Origin: Halopenitus persicus
GTDB lineage: Archaea; Halobacteriota; Halobacteria; Halobacteriales; Haloferacaceae
DNA length: 64,000 nt
Direction: 5' to 3'
Assembly (NCBI RefSeq): GCF_002355635.1
Contig: NZ_AP017558.1
Span: 2,790,001-2,854,000 of the forward strand
Each line of letters starts with the position of its first letter. Position 1 is the first letter of the stretch. The translations under genes and the position numbers were made by a program. The notes under the pieces are model-generated. The model was not told the origin of the DNA and did no database searches. It saw only the letters and a list, made by a program, of their open reading frames with translations. Shown here piece by piece: positions 4,945 through 12,043 of this stretch.

Positions 4945-5646
4945 ATGGAACTACAAAACTCGACGGTGCTCGTAACCGGTGCAACCGGCAACATGGGCCC
5001 GTACGTGACGGATTCGCTCGTCGACAGTGGCGCCACTGTCATCGGTACCTACGTCACCGAAACCGCGAGAGATGACGTCGAAAACCGCGTCGAAAACGCC
5101 GATGCAGTATCGTACTACCAGGTCGACCTGACCGATCAGGCAGCCGTCGAAGACTTCACCGAGACGATCGTCGACGACCACGGATCGATCGATCACATCG
5201 TCGGACTCGCCGGCGGTTTCTCGATGGGCAGCGTCAACGACACCGACGCCGAAGCCTTCCAGGCTGCACTGAATCGCCACGCGACGACGGCGTTTCTGAC
5301 GGTCAAGGCCTTCGTGGACCACCTCGACGACCGGAGCAGTGTCGTCCTGTTCAGTTCCGACCGTGCCATCAACCCCGTCGGCGGCACGCTCGCGTACGAC
5401 GTCGGCAAGGGTGCAGTCCGGACGCTGACCGAGTCGCTCGACGCCGAACTCGACGCCCGGGTCAACGCCGTTGCCCCGTTCCTCATCGACGTGCCGGGGA
5501 ACCGCGAGGCGATGCCCGACGCCGACTTCTCGGAGTGGACGGCCCCGGAGGCCATCGTCGACGAGGTGCTCCACTTGCTTTCGAACGAGGGTGTTACGGG
5601 CCAGATCGTCCCGATGACGGGCGGGCAGTCAGAGGTGGCGGAGTAA
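4945..5646 (+). CDS. SDR-family NAD(P)-dependent oxidoreductase
   Basis: A 233-residue short-chain dehydrogenase/reductase. The cofactor motif TGATGNMG is at residues 11-18, with an acidic VDLTD later, and IVGLAGG replaces the usual NNAG. VVLFSSDRA supplies the catalytic Ser, YDVGK supplies the Tyr and Lys, and VNAVAPFLIDVPGN fits the C-terminal lid region. The substrate is not evident. The stop overlaps the start of the DoxX gene by one base (TAATG), so the two are translationally coupled and probably under HxlR control, perhaps for quinone or aldehyde stress. Confidence 0.85.
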   Translation: MELQNSTVLVTGATGNMGPYVTDSLVDSGATVIGTYVTETARDDVENRVENADAVSYYQVDLTDQAAVEDFTETIVDDHGSIDHIVGLAGGFSMGSVNDTDAEAFQAALNRHATTAFLTVKAFVDHLDDRSSVVLFSSDRAINPVGGTLAYDVGKGAVRTLTESLDAELDARVNAVAPFLIDVPGNREAMPDADFSEWTAPEAIVDEVLHLLSNEGVTGQIVPMTGGQSEVAE

Positions 5647-6137
5647 TGGCCGAGACCGTGTCACGTCGAGACTCACCCGAGGCAGCTTCGCAGTTGAGTC
5701 TGATCTTTCTTCGCCTCGCTCTCGGGATTCCGATGCTTGTTGGAGGAGTCGGCAAAGTCTTCGGAATCGGTCCGAAACCGCTGGGTCCCGAGGGGTTCGC
5801 AGGCTTCTTGGCGAGTCTTAGCGTGCCATTTCCCTCGATCGCGGCGTGGGGTGTCGGTCTCCTCGAACTAGTCGGCGGTATCTTGTTACTGGCCGGCTTA
5901 GCTGTCCGAATCACGAGCGCATTGATCGCGATCGATATGCTCGTCGCGACGGTTCTCTACCACCTTCCGAATGGGTATCCGGCCACGAGTGGCGGTATCG
6001 AATTGACGCTCGCGCTGGCTTTGCTCGCAGTCGCGCTCGTGTTGAGTGGTCCTGGATCACTTTCACTCGAATATGTGCTGTTCAACCGAGCGGACTCCGC
6101 CGCTGACGTATCTCAGTCGAGGAGCACGGACGTCTAG
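5646..6137 (+). CDS. DoxX-family membrane protein
   Basis: A 163-residue protein with four hydrophobic segments. The first carries SLIFLRLALGIPMLVGGVGK, typical of DoxX/YphA-type proteins; WGVGLLELVGGILLLAGL and the last two helices follow. DoxX-like proteins sit in the membrane and are often linked to redox or thiosulfate/quinone metabolism. Here it is coupled to an SDR by a 1-nt stop/start overlap. The ATG at 5646 was chosen for this overlap and because upstream translation is out-of-frame SDR sequence. Confidence 0.8.
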   Translation: MAETVSRRDSPEAASQLSLIFLRLALGIPMLVGGVGKVFGIGPKPLGPEGFAGFLASLSVPFPSIAAWGVGLLELVGGILLLAGLAVRITSALIAIDMLVATVLYHLPNGYPATSGGIELTLALALLAVALVLSGPGSLSLEYVLFNRADSAADVSQSRSTDV

Positions 6138-6595: not shown

Positions 6596-6621
6596 TTCGT
6601 TCTGAACCCGAAGTCGCAATA

Positions 6622-7044
6622 TTACCCCACTCGAATCGTCCCGACCATCCCCGAGCTTTCATGTGGGATACAATAGTATTCGTACGTTCCGGGGTGATCG
6701 AACGTGTGCTCGTAGTACTCACCGGGAGCGGTGAGCCCGTCGCTGATCCGGTTCCTCGAAGCACGCTCTGACCTGAAGCCTCCACTTGCGAAGTATGTGG
6801 ATTCGTCCGGAATCCCGTCTGTATACGCTGTGACCGTATGCTGAACGTCGCTCTCGTTCGTCCACCTGACCGTCTCTCCTGACTCGATCGTCGCGGTCTT
6901 CGGTTCGAACGTGTGGGTGTCGGGCATCGTGACGGTCTGGATCGACGATGCCTGCCCGCCCAAACAGCCAACGGTGCTGAGCGTCGCCAGGGTCGCAGCG
7001 CCGCGTCGTATCAACGTTCGCCGGTTGTAGATCTCACGTGACAT
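6622..7044 (-). CDS. Halocyanin-like blue copper lipoprotein
   Basis: A 140-residue cupredoxin. The N-terminus NRRTLIRRGAATLATLSTVG followed by CLGG is a Tat signal with a lipobox. The plastocyanin-like domain has FEPKTATIESGETVRWTNES, the first copper His in QHTVTAY, and the C-terminal ligand set in YYCIPHESSGMVG (Cys, His, Met). It should carry electrons at the outer face of the membrane. It follows the ZIP gene after 24 nt and is probably the last gene of the multicopper oxidase/ZIP operon, where it could be the electron acceptor or donor for the oxidase. Confidence 0.85.
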   Translation of the reverse strand: MSREIYNRRTLIRRGAATLATLSTVGCLGGQASSIQTVTMPDTHTFEPKTATIESGETVRWTNESDVQHTVTAYTDGIPDESTYFASGGFRSERASRNRISDGLTAPGEYYEHTFDHPGTYEYYCIPHESSGMVGTIRVG

Positions 7045-7068
7045 TATACCAGGATCGGGCGGTGCCTA

Positions 7069-8319
7069 TTAGAGTACCACGAAGAGGTCGGTCACGTACA
7101 TAACACCGAGACCGAGCAGGAACGCGAGCAGGTTCGGGGCGCTGGTCACACGACCGCCTGCGTCCCGAACCATTCGCGCGATCTCCCAGTTGACCTGCAG
7201 GATGGCCCCCACTCCGATAGCGAGGAAGAAGGCACCGATCGTCGGCGAGTACGCCAGACTCCCGATCCATCCACCGAGGATGACGGGTGCGCCGGCGATG
7301 ACGCCGAGCGCGGCGAAGTGTTTGATCGATGGGCGCTCTCCGCGAGCGACCGGCGCGACGATTGCCGGGCCTTCCGTCACGTTATGGAGCATAAACCCGA
7401 TCACGAGGAACGCGCCGAGCGACACACGCCCGAGTGCGAATGAACTCCCGATCGCCAACCCCTCGGCGAGATTGTGCAGGCCGATTCCGATCGCGACCAA
7501 ATAGGCGATCCAAAGACCGCTGCTCGCCCGACTATCACCAGCGGCGACACGGCCCTCACGCCACGCACTGATCGCCTGTACCAAGAGGAGTGTGCCGAAG
7601 ATCCCGAAGACGACTAAGAGGTTGCCTTCGTAGGCACCTGGAATTCGCTCGGCGAGTTCGAACGCCTCGAACCCAGCATCGAACGCGAGGAATCCCAAGA
7701 CACCGGCCGCGAACACCAGCACGACGTGCAGCCACCGGTCGCTCATCGCCTTGATGTAGGGGAACCACAGCATCCCGAGTGCGACCGGAATGACGCCGAC
7801 GAACAGCCCGATGACTGCAAGCGTCCCGAGAAGACTGAGGCTAAATCCGGGTGACTGACTCGGCGCGACGATGGTGTTGTGGAACGTCGCTCCGTCAGAG
7901 AGGACGAGAGCGACTTCGAGATCCCATCCTGGATTCCAGTGGTACGGGACCACGATCTGTGCGCTTTCCATCGGGGCGAGCGTCTGGTCACCACCGGCTC
8001 CTTCGACCCGGAAATTCCAGTAGGCCTCATTGACGAGAACCTGTGATATCGTCACGGATTCGGGCCCGTTGTTCGTCACGTGCAGTACGACCGTTTCGTC
8101 GGTCGGAAGCGTCGTGTGCGTGACCGTTACGTCCGGAAGCGGTTCGCCGCTCTGAACGCCGGCGAGCGGTGACGTGAACGCGAACACGCCCAGGACAAGC
8201 ACGAGCAACACAATCGGGAGGAGCGCACTGACCCATCGCGGTAGTCCGAGCGGTTGTGCGATCTCTTCGTCAGTCGTTACACCGCCGTCCGTCGTCGTAT
8301 CCTGTGGGGAATCCGTCAT
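7069..8319 (-). CDS. ZIP metal transporter with extracytoplasmic domain
   Basis: A 416-residue membrane protein. The C-terminal part (from about residue 165) is a ZIP permease with paired metal-binding motifs HNLAEGLAIG and HNVTEGPAIV. Unusually, it is preceded by one TM segment (about 30-50) and a beta-rich outside domain of about 110 residues (VTVTHTTLPTDETVVLHVTN, VVPYHWNPGWDLEVAL). The start ATG follows the stop codon of the oxidase gene with no spacing, so the two are coupled. The transported metal is not evident; the operator upstream of the operon suggests iron or manganese. Confidence 0.85.
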   Translation of the reverse strand: MTDSPQDTTTDGGVTTDEEIAQPLGLPRWVSALLPIVLLVLVLGVFAFTSPLAGVQSGEPLPDVTVTHTTLPTDETVVLHVTNNGPESVTISQVLVNEAYWNFRVEGAGGDQTLAPMESAQIVVPYHWNPGWDLEVALVLSDGATFHNTIVAPSQSPGFSLSLLGTLAVIGLFVGVIPVALGMLWFPYIKAMSDRWLHVVLVFAAGVLGFLAFDAGFEAFELAERIPGAYEGNLLVVFGIFGTLLLVQAISAWREGRVAAGDSRASSGLWIAYLVAIGIGLHNLAEGLAIGSSFALGRVSLGAFLVIGFMLHNVTEGPAIVAPVARGERPSIKHFAALGVIAGAPVILGGWIGSLAYSPTIGAFFLAIGVGAILQVNWEIARMVRDAGGRVTSAPNLLAFLLGLGVMYVTDLFVVL

Positions 8320-9591
8320 TTAGACCACCTCGAAGAAGCTCATCCAGCCGAGTTCGGCGAACTCCGACTGATGCGCGTGGAACATATACAGCCCCAGTTC
8401 GTGATCCGAGTAGTCGATCTCGATGATGCCGCGCTGGGCCTGCGTTTGCATGATCGTGTCCACGGTCTTGCGCGTCGGCGTCAGCGTCGTCCCGTGGTCG
8501 TAGTAGTCGAAGAATTGCGAGTGCGTGTGGAACGAATTGATGAGGTCGAACTCCGTGGCGTTGGCGAGATACACGCGCTGGCGTTCGTTCTTGTCGATCT
8601 GGATGGGACGTTTCGTCTCGCCCGCCGTCCAGTTGCCGTCACCGTCGGTGCTACCGACCCCGTAGCCGAACGCCCGCGTGTTCACCGCGTAGACCTCGTT
8701 GCCGCCGTCGAAATTGGTGTCGAACGAGTTCATTACCATCACCATCTCGTTGACCGCGTTGTTTTCGGCGTACTCGTGGTTCCGGCTCTTCGCCGCTTCG
8801 ACGAGCAGCGTCCGGAGGTCGTCAGTGATCGGACCGGGGTAGTTGACGTAGTCGCGTGGGTTCTCCCTGACGCGCTCGGGGTCCGGATCGACGATGATCG
8901 TCCCGTAGAGTCCGCGGTGGATGTGCTCTTTTAGTGGGAGCGAGTGGCAGTGATAGAAGTGCGTGCCGGCGGGCTGGGCGATCCACTCGTAGGTGAAGGA
9001 TTCACCCGTATCGAGCACGCCAGGCCCGTTCTGCGGGGTCCCGTCCATTCTCGGGTTGAGATTCTTCAGGTGTGGATGGATCGTGTGAGCGTGCCGTCCG
9101 AGGTTCGTGAAGTTGACGCGGATCAGATCTCCTTCAACGACGCGGATCGTCGGACCCGGAACCTGGCCGTTGAATGCCCACGCCTGGAACTCGATGCCTG
9201 GTGCGATGGTAATCGTCGTGTCGACAGCAGTGAACTCGAACTCCCGGACGGTTCGGCCATTCTCCTCGTAGACCTGCTGCGGAACGTTATCCTGGCCGCT
9301 ATCTCCAGTATTGAAGGCAGTGAGGAACTCGTGAGGATCGAAATCCAAATCCCGGTATTCGCCCACCGCACCGAAGTTACCGTGTTCATTCTCGTGCTTC
9401 TGGTCGGATGAAGCGCTTGCTCGGGAACTCCCGAGTCCGACTGCTGCACTCCCGGCGACACCGAGACTACCGAGTACCGTACGACGACTGACGCTTGTTT
9501 CGCCGGTGAGTGAGCCGACCAATCGCTGTTCGAGTCGTTCTGTGATCTCCGCTGCACTGTCGTAATCTATCGATGGCATGATTTCCTCCAC
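8320..9591 (-). CDS. Two-domain multicopper oxidase
   Basis: A 423-residue secreted oxidase (or 419 from the second ATG at 9579). The Tat signal is SRRTVLGSLGVAGSAAVGL near residues 35-55. Domain 1 has the copper motifs HTIHPH and HFYHCHSLPLKEHIHRGLYG. Domain 2 has NSFHTHSQFF and MFHAHQSEF. The four HxH motifs are those of a trinuclear cluster, and the only type-1 Cys is in domain 1, the pattern of type-C two-domain oxidases. The substrate could be a metal ion (ferroxidase or manganese oxidase) or organic. It is the first gene of the operon and has a metal-regulator-like operator upstream. Confidence 0.85.
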   Translation of the reverse strand: MEEIMPSIDYDSAAEITERLEQRLVGSLTGETSVSRRTVLGSLGVAGSAAVGLGSSRASASSDQKHENEHGNFGAVGEYRDLDFDPHEFLTAFNTGDSGQDNVPQQVYEENGRTVREFEFTAVDTTITIAPGIEFQAWAFNGQVPGPTIRVVEGDLIRVNFTNLGRHAHTIHPHLKNLNPRMDGTPQNGPGVLDTGESFTYEWIAQPAGTHFYHCHSLPLKEHIHRGLYGTIIVDPDPERVRENPRDYVNYPGPITDDLRTLLVEAAKSRNHEYAENNAVNEMVMVMNSFDTNFDGGNEVYAVNTRAFGYGVGSTDGDGNWTAGETKRPIQIDKNERQRVYLANATEFDLINSFHTHSQFFDYYDHGTTLTPTRKTVDTIMQTQAQRGIIEIDYSDHELGLYMFHAHQSEFAELGWMSFFEVV

Positions 9592-9633
9592 TGGGTGTGC
9601 CTTCGAACAGTCATATGTGCTAGTTGGCCCAGC

Positions 9634-9676
9634 AAATATATAAATTAGACGTGTCTAAACTTTAGATGAGCCTAAA
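9634..9676 (-). promoter_or_regulatory. TATA box and tandem DtxR/SirR-like operator
   Basis: On the minus strand a TATA-like TTTATATATTTG (9634-9645) lies about 45-55 nt before the oxidase start. Directly upstream are TTAGACGTGTCTAA (9645-9658; perfect 6-bp arms) and TTTAGATGAGCCTAAA (9661-9676; imperfect dyad), spaced about 17 bp centre to centre. TTAGxC...GxCTAA is the type of site bound by DtxR/MntR/SirR metal-dependent repressors. Occupancy would cover the BRE and TATA, predicting metal-dependent repression of the operon. Confidence 0.6.
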
Positions 9677-9769
9677 CTAATGGGTCGGATCTCCCGCCCT
9701 TGACCGCAGGCGTGAATAGCGTAACTCGGTTGACGTACATACCGGAGAGCAACTGCTACGGGACTTGTT

Positions 9770-10005
9770 GGACGCGCCCGCTGCTCTCTGAAACCAACCC
9801 AACTCCCAGCGCCTCATACGGTACAACGACGAAGACGGGTTCGAGGGTGAAGACGTATGGGACGCCCATACAGGCCAACTCGAAGGCCGGTACAAAGGCG
9901 TTCTCGGTGCGTCCACCGCCCAACGGGTGATCCTATCGATGGCATAAACGCAAAAACAGCGGAGCGTGGCGGTCGTTCTTCCGCCTGAGAGATCAGTCCC
10001 ACGAC
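9770..10005 (+). pseudogene. TnpB N-terminal fragment, frameshifted
   Basis: One frame reads QRLIRYNDEDGFEGEDVWDA, HTGQLEGRYKGVLGASTAQ and then a stop. After a shift near 9945 it continues as RKNSGAWRSFFRLRD. Together these match the N-terminal region of haloarchaeal TnpB proteins, where a RYKGxxxxTAQ segment precedes RxNSxAWRSFF. The catalytic half is absent. It is a relic of a TnpB subtype different from the intact gene at 10721. Confidence 0.55.
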
Positions 10006-10034
10006 GAGTCGAACGCATCGGCCACGGATCACCC

Positions 10035-10370
10035 TCAGCTGTCTTCAACGAGGCTGGAAATGATCAATCGCTGGATCCCACGTCGCAGCAGACCACTGGC
10101 GGCCGGCTTCGAAACGTCGAGCGTGTCCGCAACCTCGCTGAGCGTTACGTCGCGTGGATCCTTGAAGTACTCTGCTTCGAATGCGACGAGTAACGCCTCA
10201 CGCTGCGTTTCAGTCAATCCCGCAGTTGTCTTCCCGAGACTCGCATAGTCGCTTACCTGTCGGAACTCGATGTCGATACTGTTGGCTTGAGCGTAGTCCC
10301 ACATATCGGCCAGCGTGTCTCGATCGGGTATCCACAGAGAAATGAGCCACGCGTTGCCTTCGTTTTCCAT
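10035..10370 (-). pseudogene. HTH-10 (bacterio-opsin activator type) regulator, 5'-truncated
   Basis: The frame gives GNAWLISLWIPDRDTLADMW and a C-terminal HTH-10 domain: LTETQREALLVAFEAEYFKD, DVTLSEVADTLDVSKPAASG, LLRRGIQRLI. Whole proteins of this class are about 210-230 residues, but here only about 110-130 remain. The frame can be extended upstream to about 10420, where a stop and then IS-like hairpins appear. The HTH end looks intact, so a short DNA-binding peptide could still be made from the ATG at 10370. Confidence 0.65.
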
Positions 10371-10448
10371 CCAAGCGCGACACCGTCCGCTTTCGAGATC
10401 ACCGGCGGGAACGTCTTTGCGTCGTCAGTGTACGCAAAGCTGTGAACC

Positions 10449-10470
10449 GCCTCGGGGTCAAGCCCGAGGC
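10449..10470. repeat. Hairpin with GGGGTCAAGCCC core
   Basis: GCCTCGGG and CCCGAGGC form a perfect 8-bp stem around GTCAAG. A related hairpin lies in the opposite orientation at 12741-12755. The pair brackets the tnpB region and probably marks ends of IS-type elements. No transposase gene is obviously attached to it. Confidence 0.6.
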
Positions 10471-10568
10471 TTCCGTCTTCCCGCAGTTGAGTCAATCACC
10501 GCGTCTGAAAAATTAGCATCCTGCAAACGGTCGCGAGCGATTCGATTACGTTGATCTCACGTTTATAC

Positions 10569-10612
10569 AGAATCAAGGAGAATACCTGACCCTTTAGGGT
10601 CAGGATGAATCC
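10569..10612 (+). mobile_element. Solo IS200/IS605-type right end
   Basis: AGAATCAAGGAGAA (10569-10582) is followed by the hairpin CCTGACCC-TTTA-GGGTCAGG (10585-10604) and GATGAATCC. The same 14-bp leader precedes the right-end hairpin at 46154-46199. This copy has no tnpB directly upstream, only a truncated regulator and the TnpB fragment at 9770. It looks like a solo end left by deletion, or a non-autonomous palindromic element. Confidence 0.6.
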
Positions 10613-10692
10613 GACAACCCATTCCACAGTCCACCGTCAATAATAGGCCCGGATATTCCACCGGTCTCAATCAGAACCATTACAAGAGAGTG

Positions 10693-10710
10693 TGTATAAG
10701 TGCTTATACA
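10693..10710. repeat. Left-end hairpin and promoter of tnpB
   Basis: TGTATAAG-TG-CTTATACA is a perfect 8-bp dyad ending 10 nt before the tnpB ATG. It contains a TATAAG box at about -25. It may be both the subterminal hairpin of the IS left end and the promoter. Confidence 0.5.
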
Positions 10711-10720
10711 GACGTTCAGA

Positions 10721-12043
10721 ATGCTGGAAATCCATCGGACCCACCGAGCGAAAATCCTCAACCACAGCCAAGTGGCTGAGATACTCGACCGGCACGGGTG
10801 GAGTGCCAGTAAACTCTGGAACGTCGCTAACCATCACTCCCGCCAAGTGTGGGATGACACGGGCGAGATCCCCGACCACGGCGACCTCAAAGACGAGTTG
10901 AAGACTCACACCAACTACAAGGGACTGCATTCGCAGTCCAGTCAGCGCGTTCTGGAGGAACTCGCTGAAGCCTTCAACTCGTGGAAAGAAAAGAGGAAAT
11001 TCGACGACCGTGCGAATCCGCCCGGCTACCGCAAGAAAAACTACTACGACAACCAAGGCCGTCGAGTCCACGAAGAACACCCGCGAAGTACGGTGACGTG
11101 GAAGCAAAACGGCATTCGACACGACACCAAACACAACCGTGTTAGGCTCTCAAAGGGCGCGAATCACAAGGAACACCCGAAAGCGTGGGAATACATCCTT
11201 GTCGAATACGAAACTCGCCCCGGCGTCACCGTCGAGAACCTACAACAAGTTCGTGCCGTCTACGACAAAGCAAAGGGACGCTGGGAACTTCACCTCGTCT
11301 GCAAAGACGAAATCGTGACTCCCGATGCTCCCGGCGAGGAGACGGCGGGTGTTGACCTCGGCATCTGTAACTTCGCCGCCGTCGCGTACAGCACCGAGCA
11401 AGCCGACTTGTACCCCGGTAACCGCTTGAAGCAGGACGGGTACTACTTCCCGAAAGAACTCGCCAAGTGCGATGACTCGGGTGGCGAAAAAGCCACTCGG
11501 TTGCACGCCAAGTGGTCGGAGCGCCGCAGTCACTTCTTCCACAGCCTCGCTAAGCACATCGTTGAGCGGTGTGTTGAGGAGAATGTTGGACGAATCAACG
11601 TTGGGAAACTCGCTGGTGTTCGTGAGGACGAGAATGGCGAGTCGAAGAACTGGGGGCGGCACGGGAACCTCGATTTACACGGCTGGGCGTTCGACAGGTT
11701 CTCGAACATCCTCGAATACAAGGCGAAGGTCAAGGGCATCGAAGTCGTAGAAGTGGATGAGCGCGACACGAGTAAGACGTGTTGCGTCTGCGGTAGGAAA
11801 GACGAGAGTCAGCGTGTCGAACGCGGCCTGTACGTGTGTGAGGTGTGTGATGCGGCGTTCAACGCTGACGTGAATGGGGCGGAGAACATCCGTCTCAACA
11901 TCAACGACGAAAGTAACTCCGAGTCTTCGGCCAGTGTGGACGAGGATAGGAGTACCGGCTGGTTGGCACAGCCCGAAGTCTACCTGTACGACTTGTCCAG
12001 CGGATTCCAACCGCAGGCACAAGTGGTAGACTCCAAACCCTAA
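10721..12043 (+). CDS. tnpB: RNA-guided endonuclease TnpB (IS1341-type, lone)
   Basis: A 440-residue TnpB. It has the N-terminal domain with YKGLHSQSSQRVLEELAEAF, RuvC-I with TAGVDLGICNFAAV (catalytic Asp), a long helical insert, RuvC-II around GRINVGKLAGVRED, a zinc ribbon CCVCGRKDES...YVCEVC, and RuvC-III NADVNGAENI (Asp). The position that is usually Glu in RuvC-II (xxxEDL) reads VGKL here, so the second acidic ligand is uncertain. No Y1 transposase tnpA is nearby. The ATG at 10721 is preferred to GTG 10700 because it clears the left-end hairpin. The 3' end and following right end should form the guide RNA. Confidence 0.85.
   Translation: MLEIHRTHRAKILNHSQVAEILDRHGWSASKLWNVANHHSRQVWDDTGEIPDHGDLKDELKTHTNYKGLHSQSSQRVLEELAEAFNSWKEKRKFDDRANPPGYRKKNYYDNQGRRVHEEHPRSTVTWKQNGIRHDTKHNRVRLSKGANHKEHPKAWEYILVEYETRPGVTVENLQQVRAVYDKAKGRWELHLVCKDEIVTPDAPGEETAGVDLGICNFAAVAYSTEQADLYPGNRLKQDGYYFPKELAKCDDSGGEKATRLHAKWSERRSHFFHSLAKHIVERCVEENVGRINVGKLAGVREDENGESKNWGRHGNLDLHGWAFDRFSNILEYKAKVKGIEVVEVDERDTSKTCCVCGRKDESQRVERGLYVCEVCDAAFNADVNGAENIRLNINDESNSESSASVDEDRSTGWLAQPEVYLYDLSSGFQPQAQVVDSKP

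Follow-up and report, generated by a model that had tools for sequence, protein, structure and literature searches.

Extracytoplasmic multicopper oxidases (MCOs) that serve a metal permease are known from the iron uptake systems Fet3-Ftr1 of yeast and FOX1-FTR1 of algae, and a locus of Halopenitus persicus that encodes an MCO, a ZIP permease and a cupredoxin is alike in outline. This locus lies on the minus strand of a 64,000-nucleotide stretch (assembly GCF_002355635.1, contig NZ_AP017558.1, positions 2,790,001 to 2,854,000), hereafter the window, to which all coordinates refer. Fet3-Ftr1 consists of a three-domain MCO and the permease Ftr1, whereas the window has a two-domain type-C MCO, a ZIP permease and Mn-type control by a DtxR-family regulator; membership in Fet3-Ftr1 was rejected, as the permease has the ZIP fold and is not of the Ftr1 type.

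By its description, a pair of ammonia-oxidising archaea is also similar, in which the gene of the two-domain oxidase MCO1 stands beside that of a zinc/iron permease of the ZIP family (NVIE_000600 / NVIE_000590; PMC7785015). In the parts of that paper that deal with the pair, the type 1 (T1) copper of MCO1 has an axial Leu, and the window MCO likewise has L228 at the axial place; there the pair is interpreted as copper uptake, with neither a regulator nor an electron-carrier partner described. The solved two-domain MCOs 7rab/7rac and 3gdc belong by sequence to the same subfamily as the window MCO, including the domain-2 stretch FHAHxxEFAELGWM, and differ from it in lacking its extra long N-terminal region for twin-arginine translocation (Tat). 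No function paper for 7rab/7rac or 3gdc was found in the literature searched. The source of 3gdc is presumably Arthrobacter sp. FB24, and a plasmid of that strain carries a matching ZIP. With BbZIP of Bordetella bronchiseptica (5tsa) the window permease shares the core fold and the HNxxEG helices. BbZIP has no extracytoplasmic domain (ectodomain), whereas the window ZIP has one; the Pro found in both motifs of BbZIP is replaced by Ala and Thr, and a non-acidic residue takes the place of BbZIP E240 (HMMER alignment).

The study of archaeal DtxR/MntR regulons by Leyn and Rodionov, of 2015, reportedly describes DtxR-family palindromes that control ABC, NRAMP and ZIP importers; to our knowledge an MCO-ZIP-cupredoxin unit is not among them. 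The literature searched held nothing specific on a DtxR-MCO-ZIP unit or on the pSinB module. As a described system the module is new; its principle is not, for Fet3-Ftr1 already shows an MCO at work for a permease. With a confidence slightly above even, we read it as a mobile module under Mn-type regulation for the redox-assisted uptake of a divalent metal, with Mn2+ as the likeliest cargo. The features of the locus are as follows.

6599-9682, minus strand: extent of the mobile cassette, from blastn DNA similarity to the relatives L061, L063 and L069
9662-9675, no strand assigned: operator 2, TTAGATGAGCCTAA, an imperfect palindrome that lies 17 bp upstream of operator 1 and recurs in near relatives
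9645-9658, no strand assigned: operator 1, TTAGACGTGTCTAA, a perfect palindrome abutting the TATA box (sequence, conservation)
9637-9644, minus strand: TATA box, TTTATATA, immediately downstream of operator 1; the arrangement is kept in near relatives
9585-9589, minus strand: ribosome-binding site GGAGG for the MCO start ATG 9579 (sequence; same in relatives)
8320-9579, minus strand: two-domain MCO (type C), Tat-exported, with a possible longer form from GTG 9591 (Pfam, 7rab match, ligand conservation)
7069-8319, minus strand: divergent ZIP permease with an extra N-terminal helix and an extracytoplasmic domain (motifs, Pfam, fold match)
7870-8130, minus strand: extracytoplasmic beta-sandwich of the ZIP, residues about 64-150, a possible MCO docking site (predicted strands, conserved residues)
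6622-7044, minus strand: plastocyanin-like cupredoxin, a lipoprotein; type-1 copper ligands H/C/H/M, conserved insertion (Pfam, alignment)

The MCO-ZIP pair

The MCO and the ectodomain ZIP are near-obligate partners. Of 292 haloarchaeal genomes, 40 (25 of 77 genera) carried the MCO and 39 the ectodomain ZIP, all of the latter within those 40; the odd genome, G295, has a partial MCO match only. This match (G295:C1) lies in a 694-aa frame. The initial annotation had suggested a search for the conserved order MCO-ZIP-halocyanin, and its outcome upheld the MCO-ZIP core (39 of 39 ectodomain-ZIP genomes) but left the cupredoxin as optional, in 25 of 43 haloarchaeal loci. Within loci drawn from one-per-species genomes, the ZIP gene followed that of the MCO in all except L111 and L138, both cut by a contig end, and the gap was at most 60 nt in 78 of 80 archaeal and bacterial loci, with a median of about 0. 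Even at MCO identities as low as 34-50% the order was kept, in Chloroflexota, Bacteroidota, Actinomycetota, Gemmatimonadota, Armatimonadota and Fraserbacteria. Plasmid records, 144 for the MCO and 146 for the ZIP with nearly equal organism tallies, extended the pair to Alphaproteobacteria, cyanobacteria, Deinococcus and Bacillota. The loci were collected through their similarity to the window MCO, and the pairing figures hold for that range; misbinning may affect loci from metagenome bins, near-duplicates occur among the haloarchaeal loci and a few clonal groups dominate the plasmid counts. Irregular copies included a ZIP with an in-frame stop (G154:C82), a split ZIP (G271:C152) and a ZIP fragment without MCO (G245:C11).

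In the window the three genes are tightly arranged in the order MCO, ZIP, cupredoxin: the ZIP ATG is contiguous with the TAA stop codon of the MCO (gap 0) and the cupredoxin starts 24 nt past the ZIP stop. This arrangement had been proposed from the open reading frames, and both frames and junctions were confirmed (7069-8319, 6622-7044 and the MCO to 8320). The MCO frame 8320-9591 stood as well, with one correction: ATG 9579 is a likelier start than GTG 9591 because GGAGG at 9585-9589 is well spaced for it. Tat export and two domains had also been correctly predicted for the MCO, which has the Tat motif SRRTVLG and no lipobox, as read from its sequence, and matched the Pfam families Cu-oxidase_3 (8.7e-21) and Cu-oxidase_2 (4.5e-13). 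Residues 58-423 align to 7rab with an E value of 5e-107, and 3gdc was also matched.

The copper ligands of the MCO were at least 95% conserved among 81 homologues. The T1 site is formed by H169, C215 and H223, besides L228, and the trinuclear site by eight histidines (H172, H174, H214, H216, H355, H357, H405 and H407). In domain 2, Ala406 replaces the Cys; with two cupredoxin domains, all eight trinuclear histidines and a T1 Cys confined to domain 1, the protein is therefore a type-C two-domain MCO, which would be expected to reduce O2. Identity with NirK was rejected (TIGR02376, 74.5 against a cut-off of 296.3 bits, and the full eight-His set), as was identity with CueO (curated model, 47.4 against 525 bits) and CopA (curated model, 89.9 against 479 bits). 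The former T1 pocket of domain 2 holds the conserved residues N352, E410 and E413, and a hard-ligand metal site in this pocket is a matter of speculation.

The permease scored under the gathering score of Pfam Zip (PF02535; 6.3e-6, 26.1 against 35.1 bits) and did not reach the cut-off of the ZupT model (42.8 against 252 bits), which indicates a divergent subfamily. Both HNxxEG motifs were invariant in 51 ZIP sequences, in agreement with a ZIP fold. BbZIP was the best match of the predicted fold (pLDDT 82; Foldseek probability 1.00, TMt 0.68) and matched by sequence too (8e-5). Other haloarchaeal ZIPs found with the window ZIP as query are shorter and align from about residue 159 only, and thus lack the ectodomain. 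Conserved residues of the ectodomain are N83, G85, V94, W128 and G143; aromatic, Gly and Pro positions are conserved and there is no conserved His/Cys set, which makes docking likelier than metal binding as its role. The MCO may possibly dock on this domain.

Operators and linked regulators

Two DtxR/SirR-like palindromes had been noted in the promoter, and both were confirmed. In the genome of H. persicus itself, TTAGN6CTAA occurs at 22 sites against 11 for a reversed control pattern, so a single match is weak evidence and conservation decides. Among 42 haloarchaeal relatives, TTAGAYNNRTCTAA (at most one mismatch) lay within 160 nt of the MCO in 30, where shuffles expect 0.06, and with two mismatches at one further MCO promoter; in the remaining 11 it was placed further upstream, ahead of a dtxR gene leading into the MCO (in L093 a dtxR-like stretch). 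The upstream TTAGxC...GxCTAA dyads which the initial annotation had proposed to look for are found in 30 of 42 promoters, in one more and in 11 dtxR-led operons.

Across 19 genomes there were 25 exact TTAGAYNNRTCTAA sites and 4 of the reversed control; nearly all of the former lay at the MCO, ZnuA/ABC-3 importers, sirR, GDT1 or ArsP_2. Sites away from the MCO, whose targets were assigned with Pfam runs on one or two of each kind, preceded ZnuA-type/ABC-3 importer operons (L180, L185, L191, L194), a SirR-type dtxR mostly followed by a GDT1-like gene (L181, L186, L187, L190, L192, L193), GDT1 (L188, L189 and, by resemblance only, L182) and ArsP_2 (L195). The operator is shared with Mn-homeostasis genes, as in a Mn (MntR/SirR) regulon. 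A further perfect Mn-type box (L184 of G055, site 2977) has a DoxX-family gene on one side and a divergent helix-turn-helix region on the other; no known metal gene adjoins it.

The commoner TTAGG-N4-CCTAA boxes of the H. persicus genome stand at siderophore-type binding proteins, ferritin-like genes and another DtxR gene, and are treated as its iron set. One of them accompanies an iron regulon-like locus (L035:1461-3972) in which a two-domain DtxR gene stands beside three ferritin-like genes. Reading the MCO operators as iron boxes was rejected, as the two differ in sequence and targets. The controlling metal had been left as Fe, Mn or Cu; the match of the operators to a Mn-type regulon and not to the TTAGG-N4-CCTAA boxes favours Mn. 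The same genome has a second DtxR-family gene (L044:6367-6831, minus strand), without the usual metal ligands, divergent from an ArsP_2 exporter-like gene (7094-8452, plus strand), with TTAGGCACGTCTAA between them.

In 45 of 83 loci a DtxR-family gene was located near the MCO, mostly immediately ahead of it. Aligned with two reference regulators checked against PDB, 42 of these 45 proteins carry the MntR-like ligands Asp and Asp/Glu where DtxR has Met10 and Cys102, and the Met/Cys ligand pair of DtxR occurs in none of the 45. A linked regulator with MntR-type ligands, as in a Mn regulon, thus accompanies the unit in relatives. On four alphaproteobacterial plasmids (Sulfitobacter, Shinella and two Sinorhizobium) a gene named MntR by PGAP is divergent from the MCO, and the Sulfitobacter protein, the one scored of the four, passes the MntR cut-off (206 against 153). 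Three of the four intergenic regions have palindromes with ATAGC..GCTAT arms, which we take to resemble the enterobacterial MntR box. In Deinococcus D7000, DtxR and the Mn2+ NRAMP transporter MntH (582 against a cut-off of 430) are divergent from MCO-ZIP. The differing regulators and operators imply that two regulator lineages meet at the same MCO-ZIP pair.

From the geometry, a protein bound at operator 1 would cover the TFB-recognition element, which points to repression, and in Deinococcus TTAGGTATGTCTAA lies in a repressor position between TTGACT and TAATAT (-35 and -10). Scarcity of the metal would then switch the unit on, as befits uptake.

The third gene and the mobile cassette

The third gene of the window passed Pfam Copper-bind (1.8e-18; 67.2 against 21.2 bits) and has plastocyanins among its sequence matches. 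The earlier label of halocyanin-like protein is correct as to a cupredoxin, but the halocyanin model TIGR03102 was not reached (45.3 against 93.8 bits). An RR and a lipobox (TVGC) were read from the sequence, and because of the lipobox the protein is probably membrane-anchored. Its H/C/H/M ligands and unusual insertion, as seen in the alignment, are kept in haloarchaea and Actinomycetota. The third position is variable: the cupredoxin is truncated in L069 (at 8546-8794), a Rieske protein takes its place in Gloeocapsa and Rhodococcus erythropolis PR4 and a cytochrome c lipoprotein in an Anaerolineales genome, while many MCO-ZIP loci have no electron-carrier third gene. That unrelated carriers occupy one position suggests that in some lineages the function includes an exchange of electrons with the MCO; in the window, electrons would flow between MCO and cupredoxin.

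In a quick tree the haloarchaeal MCOs formed one clade within the bacterial ones, and the 18-row group with the window MCO mixed several haloarchaeal families; the cassette therefore moves. A close MCO was not found in two genomes of the same genus examined. DNA similarity to relatives stops at 9680-9682 (blastn), exactly where the dtxR gene sits in these relatives, and neither a dtxR gene nor a remnant was found in the window by tblastn and blastn. The window copy has lost the preceding dtxR gene and retained both operators, and it may be controlled by an unlinked SirR-like gene of its own genome (L045), which has identical D/D ligands.

About 1 kb from this cassette edge lies a gene of a TnpB/IS605 OrfB-type transposase (10700-12043, plus strand; OrfB_IS605 2.3e-25, Cas12f1-like_TNB 5.7e-20); a six-frame translation of 9677-10760 gave no clear transposase-like remnant beside the operator. 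A DoxX gene is found near the cassette at 5535-6137. On plasmid pHAR02 of Halorubrum salinarum, genes for a Zn/Cd-type P1B ATPase and a cation diffusion facilitator come after the cassette (L201:8293-11266).

Proposed function and alternative explanations

In the Mn2+ uptake module that we favour, a SirR/MntR-type DtxR protein would bind the palindromes beside the TATA box and block TFB/TBP when the metal is sufficient, and the operon would be expressed when Mn is scarce. The ZIP would import the metal and the exported MCO, possibly docked on the ZIP ectodomain, would carry out an O2-using redox step at the channel mouth. ZIP permeases are promiscuous. In the favoured version the MCO would oxidise competing Fe2+ (or Cu+), so that the ZIP delivers Mn2+, and the membrane-anchored cupredoxin would swap electrons with the MCO. 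Of the initial interpretation, the link between a redox enzyme outside the cytoplasm and a permease for divalent metals is retained, as is an operon-like unit under DtxR/SirR-type control; the cupredoxin is an optional part.

Several points weigh against this proposal. An oxidase is not obviously required for the import of Mn2+. The haloarchaeal regulators score 204-227 bits with the MntR model nearest to them, under its cut-off of 350, so that their MntR-type label reflects ligands and context and is no curated assignment; Microvirga has a Fur-family gene instead, and many plasmid copies lie amid copper or heavy-metal resistance genes. The co-regulated GDT1 and ArsP_2 are exporter-like, which is odd for a purely Mn-repressed set, and the co-regulated ABC binding protein scored 80.6 bits with AztC (zinc) against 72.5 with MntC (manganese), close enough to make Zn a conceivable cargo. 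We regard it as possible, with less confidence than the reading of the window itself, that the unit belongs to a cross-domain mobile class of O2-dependent, redox-gated Mn importers, in which an MCO docked on an ectodomain ZIP is combined with MntR-type repression and an interchangeable, optional carrier.

Copper acquisition, in which the MCO would oxidise Cu+ to Cu2+, the ZIP import Cu2+ and the cupredoxin carry copper, fits the window module less well and is considered unlikely. For the MCO1-permease neighbours of ammonia-oxidising archaea this model has been put forward, and in the sections of that paper on the pair MCO1 and the adjacent permease of Nitrososphaera viennensis are moderately up on copper limitation (log2 fold changes 0.81 and 1.33), whereas the same source gives conflicting MCO1 responses for Nitrosopumilus maritimus (PMC7785015). 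Some plasmid copies stand near CopC/CopD, PCu(A)C and copper-type ATPases; against copper are the Mn-type haloarchaeal operators with their adjacent regulators, and MntR and MntH beside bacterial copies. We know of no ZIPs established as Cu2+ importers.

Oxidation or detoxification of Mn(II) is likewise an unlikely explanation. Here the MCO would be a Mn(II) oxidase in a unit induced by Mn, with the ZIP exporting Mn or recovering it from the oxide. Several MCOs oxidise Mn(II), the regulators are of Mn type and the same box precedes the exporter-like GDT1 and ArsP_2; in Pseudomonas putida GB-1, Mn oxidation raises intracellular Mn (PMC3798386), which counts in the same direction. On the other hand, an operator at the TATA box, and between -35 and -10 in Deinococcus, fits repression, the box controls importers too and ZIPs normally import.

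Many MCOs are ferroxidases, and the parallel in function, with an MCO that works for a permease, together with DtxR-family control, would suit iron uptake similar to that of Fet3-Ftr1, with the MCO passing iron to the ZIP. We hold this to be improbable: the iron boxes of the genome are unlike the MCO box, none of the linked regulators has the Met-Cys ligand pair of DtxR/IdeR, and a ferroxidase yields Fe3+, whereas ZIPs carry divalent ions. Zinc uptake under a zinc-responsive DtxR protein is very improbable, for even if Zn2+ is often the cargo of ZIPs and the ABC binding protein agrees slightly better with AztC than with MntC, the nearest regulator model is MntR, the proteobacterial neighbours are annotated as MntR, Deinococcus has MntH and a redox enzyme makes little sense for zinc.

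By what means microbes acquire Mn2+ in preference to Fe2+ where oxygen and metals abound is an open question, and lineages that carry the pair, such as haloarchaea, Rubrobacter, Deinococcus and Arthrobacter, are known for stress tolerance tied to high Mn. If the pair of ammonia-oxidising archaea is of the same family, its copper-uptake model needs re-examination. The idea of a Mn2+ uptake module is directly testable in genetically tractable haloarchaea; if true, cells could take up Mn2+ with Fe2+ or Cu+ excluded, and an O2-using oxidase nearly inseparable from a ZIP under Mn-type control would represent a new coupling of redox chemistry and metal selectivity.

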